From the NCBI GenBank assembly GCA_002720095.2, contig PBGP02000006.1, forward strand, positions 1 through 64,000: 64,000 bases of DNA. The letters are read 5' to 3'. Made by a program: the position numbers and the translations under genes. The stretch is from Methanobacteriota archaeon (lineage in GTDB: Archaea; Thermoplasmatota; Poseidoniia; Poseidoniales; Poseidoniaceae). Shown piece after piece: positions 1-55,576 of this stretch (position 1 is its first letter; the number at the start of each line of letters is the position of its first letter). Below the pieces are notes generated by a model. That model was not told where the DNA came from. It worked only from the letters and a program-made list of their open reading frames with translations, and made no database searches.

Positions 1-218
<218 letters not shown>

Positions 219-227
219 AAGAAAACG

Positions 228-53144: not shown

Positions 53145-53432
53145 TCATATCGCAGTAGGAGCAACGTGATCCCCAGTTTTATCATCTGAAGAATTAACCC
53201 TATTCCATACCCTACTCATTAGATAGTCATGACATTTTTTACAATATCTAAATTGTCTGTAAGCTTCTCTGAATGAGTATGCTTTTTTTCCTGTTGCAAC
53301 TAAGTAACCTTCTGGAGATAATCTACTAACTATGAGTCCAGATTCGTCACATCCAATAACGTCGCAGCAAGGTTTACCAGACATGGTTCTAGGATTATGT
53401 GATAAGATAATAAACCTTGCATCATTATTCAT
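53145..53432 (-). CDS. Small cysteine-rich protein, unknown
   Basis: 95 residues. Cysteines occur as PCCDVIGCDE near residue 22 and YCKKCHDYL near 64; these could bind a metal ion. Its ATG overlaps the biotin carrier stop by 8 bases (ATGAATAA), the same arrangement as carA/carB, so it is probably translated from the carboxylase message. Family not recognised. Confidence 0.6.
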   Translation of the reverse strand: MNNDARFIILSHNPRTMSGKPCCDVIGCDESGLIVSRLSPEGYLVATGKKAYSFREAYRQFRYCKKCHDYLMSRVWNRVNSSDDKTGDHVAPTAI

Positions 53433-53817
53433 CGGGTTTAATAATGATTAGTGGGAGATTAGCTTCAATTGATGATCCTTCGATACAATTTATTTCAGTT
53501 ACAGTTCCCGAAATTGGTGCACTAATTTCATTTTGCATTTTCATGGCCTCAAGAATCATACATACATCTCCTTCATTGACTTTAGATCCTAATTCTACTT
53601 CAACAGTTACTACTTTTCCTGGGATGGATGAAGATATTATCCCACTCTTTTTTCCACTCTTGGAGCTCCTTTTTCTAGGTAAATTATTACTTTGCCCGTC
53701 TGGTAATTTAATGGAAAAAGTTTTTTCATTTACAGTGACAATATAATCTTCATTATCGGCATCAATTTTTACTCTGAATTTTTCTCCATCTACTTCAATA
53801 TTATATTCTTCAGACAG
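53425..53817 (-). CDS. accB: Biotin carboxyl carrier protein (CTG start)
   Basis: 130 residues. The C-terminal biotinyl domain has the canonical EAMKM with biotinyl-Lys93 (codon at 53539-53541), GSKVNEGDVCMILEAMK before it and the partner strand SAPISGTVTEI after it. The N-terminal about 55 residues are a beta-rich lead-in. The frame has no ATG, GTG or TTG upstream of the domain; a stop (TAA) lies directly before CTG at 53817, and a full GGAGGTGAT Shine-Dalgarno stands three bases before that CTG. It is the biotin-carrying part of the acyl-CoA carboxylase whose transferase is encoded upstream. Confidence 0.88.
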   Translation of the reverse strand: MSEEYNIEVDGEKFRVKIDADNEDYIVTVNEKTFSIKLPDGQSNNLPRKRSSKSGKKSGIISSSIPGKVVTVEVELGSKVNEGDVCMILEAMKMQNEISAPISGTVTEINCIEGSSIEANLPLIIIKPDE

Positions 53818-53821
53818 TTAA

Positions 53822-54004
53822 TCACCTCCAAGTCGTTCTAGATGTTTTAGTCTCTCTAATGCCTTTTAATCCCATTATTTTTCTTCTGTGTTCGTGTGAC
53901 CATGAATTTTTATTCATTCTTCCTTGATTAAATCTGTCATCTTCGCTATTAATATGTAATAATATTGCAGCAATTGCAGCAATTTTCTCTTTTTCAATTG
54001 ACAT
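53822..54004 (-). CDS. Small carboxylase-operon protein (60 aa)
   Basis: 60 residues: MSIEKEKIAAIAAILLHINS forms one Ala/Ile-rich helix and the rest is basic. It lies 9 bases after pccB and its last codons contain the Shine-Dalgarno of accB. Small proteins in this position accompany acyl-CoA carboxylases and sodium-pumping decarboxylases as accessory subunits. The role here is inferred from position. Confidence 0.65.
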   Translation of the reverse strand: MSIEKEKIAAIAAILLHINSEDDRFNQGRMNKNSWSHEHRRKIMGLKGIRETKTSRTTWR

Positions 54005-54013
54005 AATTTCAAC

Positions 54014-55576
54014 TCACAAAGGTATATTTCCATGTTTTCTATCTGGTCTTTTTTCTTGTTTATCAATCAACATATTTAATGCAAGACACAACTTCTTCCT
54101 AGTTTCATTGGGGTTAATTACATCATCGATATAACCTAATGCAGCAGCTCTATATGGATTAGCAAAAGTATCTCTGTATTCATCAACAAGTCTAGATCTT
54201 TCCTCTTCAGAATTTCTTGCCGATTTAATTCTTTTTTTGTGGATTATTTGTACAGCACCGTCAGCTCCCATTACTGCTAATTCTGCAGTTGGCCAAGCAA
54301 TATTATAATCACCTCTGATATGTTTAGAACACATTACATCATAAGCACCTCCATATGCTTTCCTCATTATTACTGTAAGTTTAGGTACTGTTGCCTCTGA
54401 AAAAGCGTATAATAATTTAGCACCATGCCTAATGATGCCTCCCCATTCTTGAGATGCACCTGGTAAAAACCCTGGTACATCTTCTAAAGTTAGTAAGGGG
54501 ATGTTAAAAGCATCACAGAATCTTACAAATCTTGCAGCCTTATTTGAAGCATCAATATCAAGGCAACCAGCTAAGTGCATTGGTTGATTGGCTACAATTC
54601 CAATTAAATTGCCGTTCAAGTGTGAATAACCGATTACAATATTTTGAGCCCATTCAGATTGGACTTCTAGAAATGCTCCATCATCAACAATAGAAGTAAT
54701 TACTTTTTTAACATCATATGGATGACTAGGATTTGATGGTACAATTTCATTTAAATTTTCACAGAGGCGATTTTGGTTGTCAACAGTTTTTTTATTCGGT
54801 GGCTTTTGAAGGTTGTTTGAAGGGAAAATAGAAATTAGTTGTCTGGCAATGTTAATTGCTTCTTCATCATTATCGGCGATAAAATGGGATACACCAGATT
54901 TACTATTATGTGTAGAGGCACCTCCTAAGTCTTCGAAACTTACAATTTCATTTGTTACGGTTTTAATTACTTCCGGGCCAGTAATGAACATGTGAGATGA
55001 TTTATCTACCATTATCACAAAATCAGTGATTGCTGGAGAATATACCGCGCCTCCAGCACAAGGACCTAAAATTAGACTAATTTGAGGAATAACTCCACTC
55101 GCTCTAACATTTCTAAAAAATATTTCTGCGTAACTACCAAGACTTGCAACACCTTCTTGTATTCTAGCTCCACCACTATCATTCAGTCCAATTACGGGTA
55201 CCCCCGTTTTCAATGCCATATCAAGTACTTTACATATTTTCAAACCATGCATTTCACCCAGTGAACCTCCATATACTGTAAAATCTTGTGCGAAGCAGTA
55301 GATTGGTGAACCATTTATCTTACCATGACCCGTAACTACTCCATCACCAGGAATAACATTTTTGTCCATTCCAAAATCTCTACATCTGTGTTCTACTAAT
55401 GAATCAATTTCATGAAATGTTCCATCATCCACTAATAATTCTAATCTTTCTCTAGCTGTTAATTTCCCTCTTTTATGCTGAGCCTCAATTCTCGCAGTAC
55501 CGCCTCCAGCTTCAGCTCTAGCTTTCCTAGAACGCAAATCTGACAACTTTTCTTCGTTAGGAGCCATTGCTTTCAT
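54014..55576 (-). CDS. pccB: Acyl-CoA carboxylase carboxyltransferase (propionyl-CoA type)
   Basis: 520 residues with the duplicated crotonase-like halves of the carboxyltransferase. [18 protein letters not shown] and [16 protein letters not shown] form the acyl-CoA site, and [17 protein letters not shown] with [10 protein letters not shown] form the second half. It transfers CO2 from biotin to acetyl- or propionyl-CoA. Adjacency to methylmalonyl-CoA mutase genes favours propionyl-CoA. A biotin carboxylase subunit is not in the window. ATG 55567 is an alternative start. Confidence 0.94.

Follow-up and report, generated by a model that had tools for sequence, protein, structure and literature searches.

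A biotin carrier protein gene of a Marine Group II archaeon almost certainly begins with CTG

The gene for the biotin carboxyl carrier protein of a marine archaeon almost certainly begins at a CTG codon. The window analyzed is the whole 64,000-nucleotide stretch of DNA, and its source is a Poseidoniales (Marine Group II) archaeon with a 1.8 Mb genome and ~35% G+C in the part sampled. The carrier gene lies on the minus strand at 53425..53817, exactly where an earlier sequence-only reading had placed it. It is an open frame of 130 codons that starts with CTG at 53817-53815 and terminates with TAA at 53427-53425. CTG is a near-cognate start codon, one base away from ATG, and the predicted N-terminus is (M)SEEYNIEVDGEK. 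Around the start, the minus strand reads ...AGA ACG ACT TGG AGG TGA TTAA CTG TCT GAA GAA TAT AAT ATT GAA GTA.

The translated protein matches the Pfam family Biotin_lipoyl (PF00364) at residues 63-126 (E 3e-16, above the cut-off) and possesses the EAMKM lysine motif, which bears out the initial identification as a biotin carrier. The same reading had noted that no ATG, GTG, or TTG precedes the domain and that a stop codon directly precedes the CTG at 53817. Both points hold. The first such codon in the frame is the ATG at codon 87, within the biotinyl domain, and a TAA read from the sequence at 53820-53818 (minus strand) is in frame and immediately 5' of the CTG. Because of this TAA, an upstream in-frame start or a +1 frameshift fusion is excluded.

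The frame appears to be coding from the CTG onward. The residues that follow the start are conserved within the genus as [ST][ED]EY.IEVDGE, and codons 2-85 are under purifying selection between congeners, with a dN/dS of about 0.08-0.25 where synonymous changes are unsaturated. In a codon-usage scan of ~361 complete genes (437 kb), the carrier gene comes top for coding signal preceding any ATG, GTG, or TTG. Other positions for the start were considered and rejected. An ATT at codon 7 would be ~22 nt away from the Shine-Dalgarno (SD) sequence, and the relatives start at codon 1. The window has no TTG codon downstream of the CTG, and congeners do not have such codons in common.

The SD sequence GGAGGTGAT (53829-53821, minus strand) is located 3 nt before the CTG. 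It is a perfect 9-base complement of ATCACCTCC, the anti-SD at the 3' end of the archaeon's own 16S rRNA gene, which is found in the same window (1..219, plus strand) and was identified by eye from the sequence. The predicted duplex has an energy of ~ -18 kcal/mol, and the carrier CTG is thereby served by an extended SD-anti-SD pairing at a suitable spacing. The motif GGAGGTGA occurs 11 times on both strands of 437 kb of this genome, one of these being the 16S 3' end read as its complement, and its presence before the carrier CTG is more than chance. An SD match of at least 5 bases was found for 80/307 genes, compared with 19/307 in a control region. A perfect SD three bases before the CTG had been described earlier, and this is correct. 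The accompanying claim that other genes here use the same spacing applies to a strong-SD minority, several genes showing AGGTGAT, 3 nt, and then ATG; it does not apply to most genes, in which the SD is weak or lacking.

The SD of the carrier gene is composed of the last codons, TGG AGG TGA, of a small 60-aa gene (53822..54004, minus strand), a gene that is conserved in orthologous loci. The UGA stop of this gene precedes the carrier CTG by 4 nt, and the same stop-to-start distance occurs in 108/125 orthologous loci. The intergenic distance is very short and conserved, as in coupled gene pairs, and the location of the stop inside the SD points to translational coupling. Pfam and NCBIfam searches with the 60-aa protein gave no match. 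Its W....HRR motif is conserved, and its C-terminus, where the coding sequence doubles as SD, is mostly W-R or W-K.

Alignment of the start regions of orthologues had been suggested as a check on the CTG. In 125 distinct Poseidoniales orthologues, the CTG aligns with start codons that are ATG in 97, TTG in 13, GTG in 10, ATT in 3, and ATC in 1, the window having the only CTG. These 125 regions come from the loci that were fetched, picked partly by similarity and genus, and are not a random sample; across the order, carrier matches were found in 313/319 genomes, with hits to a second, more distant carrier protein counted in. The CTG thus occupies the position of the orthologous start codon, and no usable ATG, GTG, or TTG lies downstream of it, which upholds the proposal that it is the start. 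The window genus is represented by five genomes, one of which is broken at the carrier locus. All four readable genomes are without ATG, GTG, or TTG at the start, with CTG once and ATT three times. The three ATT contexts are GGAGGTGAATTT ATT TCA, GGAGGTGATACA ATT ACT, and GGAGGTGATTTC ATT AGC. The ATC loci L184/L008 and L050 belong to another lineage, with L184 in another family, and the ATC there has a separate origin. L050, a locus with ambiguous bases that was read by eye, is outside the tabulated 125.

The carrier start codon has changed repeatedly across Poseidoniales. On a tree of the carrier protein, the three ATT genomes group together with support 91/84 and are the sister group of the window, so in the shortest history within the genus ATG would have become CTG in one lineage and, separately, ATT in the other. 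The ATG label requires 16 changes on this tree, which is built from few columns and has many unresolved forks. Across the same 60 loci, 3 pccB genes and 12 carrier genes start with a codon other than ATG (Fisher p = 0.025, uncorrected for relatedness).

Weaker start codons are accompanied by stronger SD sequences. A perfect GGAGGTGA stands ahead of 36/97 ATG starts, 17/23 GTG or TTG starts, and 5/5 CTG, ATT, or ATC starts among the orthologues (ATG versus other starts, Fisher 1.8e-4, uncorrected for relatedness). The median predicted pairing with the 16S tail is -11.3 kcal/mol for ATG and about -15 for GTG and TTG, and the values for CTG, ATT, and ATC range from -15 to -18.5. Predicted pairing is stronger at non-ATG starts, with p about 3e-6 when uncorrected for relatedness.

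It is very likely that the carrier is translated from the CTG by SD-anchored, coupled initiation, with the constraint on AUG relaxed; here we infer the insertion of methionine, the coupling, and relaxed constraint as the cause. A ribosome finishing the 60-aa gene would stop at the UGA that lies within the perfect 9-base SD. The SD would then hold the small subunit, so that the P site contains the codon 4 nt past the UGA stop. Initiator Met-tRNA would start at the CTG despite the first-position mismatch. Strong SD pairing and termination-reinitiation together may relax the need for AUG and make the exact start codon less important, and in the most economical reading the start codon would therefore drift: to CTG here, to ATT in three sister species, to ATC in a genus belonging to a different family, and to GTG or TTG many times. 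The presence of aIF1 counts against this mechanism, since aIF1 acts against non-AUG starts. Its role in start fidelity is documented in Pyrococcus (PMC6237735), and the window genome and three congeners all have it, so loss of aIF1 was rejected as the cause of the CTG start.

Two alternatives would remove the CTG start altogether. The true codon could be ATG and the CTG a one-base artefact of sequencing or assembly, as might be suspected from the ATG in most orthologues outside the genus and from a species that is represented by one genome only. The sequence-only reading had itself named ATG orthologues together with an error here as its refuting case. The codon is ATT, not ATG, independently in three congeners, with SD and frame intact, so that the whole genus departs from ATG; the remainder of the carrier frame is intact as well. 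With 4/4 readable genus genomes lacking the usual start codons, a lone sequencing error is very unlikely. It is also very unlikely that translation starts elsewhere, through frameshifting from the small gene or at an internal codon. The upstream gene does end within 4 nt, and an in-frame TTG is found at codon 13 in L124 and at codon 33 in L126. These internal TTGs are unshared among congeners, however, and the in-frame TAA stands in the way of a +1 fusion to the small gene. Moreover, the window and L125 have no ATG, GTG, or TTG before codon 87, and a start there would delete half of the biotinyl domain.

A third alternative accepts the CTG and holds that the weak codon is kept by selection to lower or regulate carrier-protein output. 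None of the 4 readable genus members has ATG despite large synonymous divergence, and in S. aureus grown in poor medium such codons left output at roughly 10% of the AUG level (PMC13009471). The weak starts of E. coli infC and pcnB and of S. aureus ccpN and cvfC1 are parallels. On the other hand, the codon itself is not conserved (CTG versus ATT), demand for the carrier should be similar to that for its partner subunits, and the strong SD has the look of compensation, not of repression. We regard such down-tuning as possible, if unlikely. From sequence alone, it and relaxed constraint appear inseparable. The more specific proposal that selection holds the carrier start of the genus off AUG, as a translational control of carboxylase output that depends on the SD built into the last codons of the small gene, is doubtful.

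Near-cognate starts with an extended SD are already known. In Staphylococcus aureus and Bacillus subtilis, cvfC1, ccpN, and infC have AUU or AUA starts with an extended SD, and output was roughly 10% of that from AUG in most tests (PMC13009471). The carrier gene shares with these a near-cognate start conserved across species and an extended SD alongside it. Those cases are bacterial and mostly regulators, whereas this one is an archaeal enzyme subunit with CTG, ATT, or ATC and an SD lying within the last codons of the gene upstream. Start-codon switches across prokaryotes are compensated by a stronger SD (Belinky et al. 2017, PMC5622118), the same association of weaker start codon and stronger SD that is found here. 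That work covered AUG, GUG, and UUG only, and omitted CUG and AUU as too few. Gene pairs translated by termination-reinitiation have been described in Haloferax volcanii and E. coli (PMC6728339, PMC10666635), and these are likewise adjacent, co-directed genes with almost no spacing that are likely to encode subunits of one complex. They mostly have 1- or 4-nt overlaps and the usual starts, whereas in the pair described here the genes are separated by 4 nt, the stop falls within the SD, and the start is non-standard. Coupling in Haloferax is most efficient when genes overlap and falls with distance, and a 4-nt gap is outside its test set (PMC10666635). CTG is also used in another archaeon, Methanosarcina mazei, where Ribo-seq found it as the start of 5% of unannotated small ORFs (PMC11456600); those ORFs are short and unannotated, in contrast to the conserved enzyme subunit here. 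A literature search on start codons in Marine Group II found nothing relevant. The combination of a weak start and an extended SD is known; the carrier gene adds an archaeal case, notable for a start codon that changes recurrently at one orthologous position.

Across orthologues, a single start position carries ATG, GTG, TTG, ATT, ATC, or CTG, with an SD strength that varies and a gene arrangement that is almost constant, and this clean natural series suits testing the tolerance of archaeal ribosomes for near-cognate starts. If gene callers accept ATG, GTG, and TTG only, annotation can lose or shorten a core metabolic subunit throughout a genus.

The genome was surveyed in stretches that total 437 kb, about 24% of it, with ~361 complete genes. 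Two of these genes, the carrier and a cupin gene, have non-standard starts, which makes such starts rare in the window genome and no general habit. The cupin gene (L227, G000:C15:50424-50792, minus strand) has ATC where nearly all orthologues, three in the genus among them, have ATG, and its first usual start is a TTG at codon 35, inside the domain. This ATC may reflect an error in sequencing, or it may be another non-standard start like that of the carrier. Among 251 genes of congener G003, the carrier gene is the only convincing non-standard start, and 295 genes of G034 gave no convincing case. Other scan hits were judged by eye to be antisense or shadow ORFs. Widespread use of CTG or ATT starts was not seen in the scanned parts of these three genomes.

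The carrier is the biotin subunit of an acyl-CoA carboxylase, probably propionyl-CoA carboxylase. The first gene of the cluster (54014..55576, minus strand, ATG start) encodes a PccB/MmdA-like carboxyltransferase subunit (PF01039, E 4e-199) that also matches mmdA TIGR01117, below the model cut-off. Inspected by eye, the ORFs divergent from it look like methylmalonyl-CoA mutase B12-binding and MeaB genes, and the reading as propionyl-CoA carboxylase is based on these neighbors. On contig 15, genes for a biotin carboxylase, a further carboxyltransferase, and a second carrier protein lie near one another. In the window, the carrier gene is followed directly by a gene for a 95-aa protein with CC and CxxC cysteines (53145-53432, minus strand), the ATG of which overlaps the carrier gene end; it is also present in L003 and has no family match.

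Some further observations were made in the loci compared. The pccB gene of L051 has CTG where its relatives L027 and L013 have GTG and ATG, and a GTG in frame three codons upstream could serve instead. The records of L051 and L064 are titled Rhodobiaceae and Acidimicrobiaceae; their carrier loci are Marine Group II-like, L051 groups inside Poseidoniales on the carrier tree, and the records are probably misassigned bins. Two nearly identical 737-codon ORFs lie near the starts of contigs 3 and 5 of the window genome (L217 1181-3394 and L219 4945-7158) and are either a duplicated gene or an assembly overlap.
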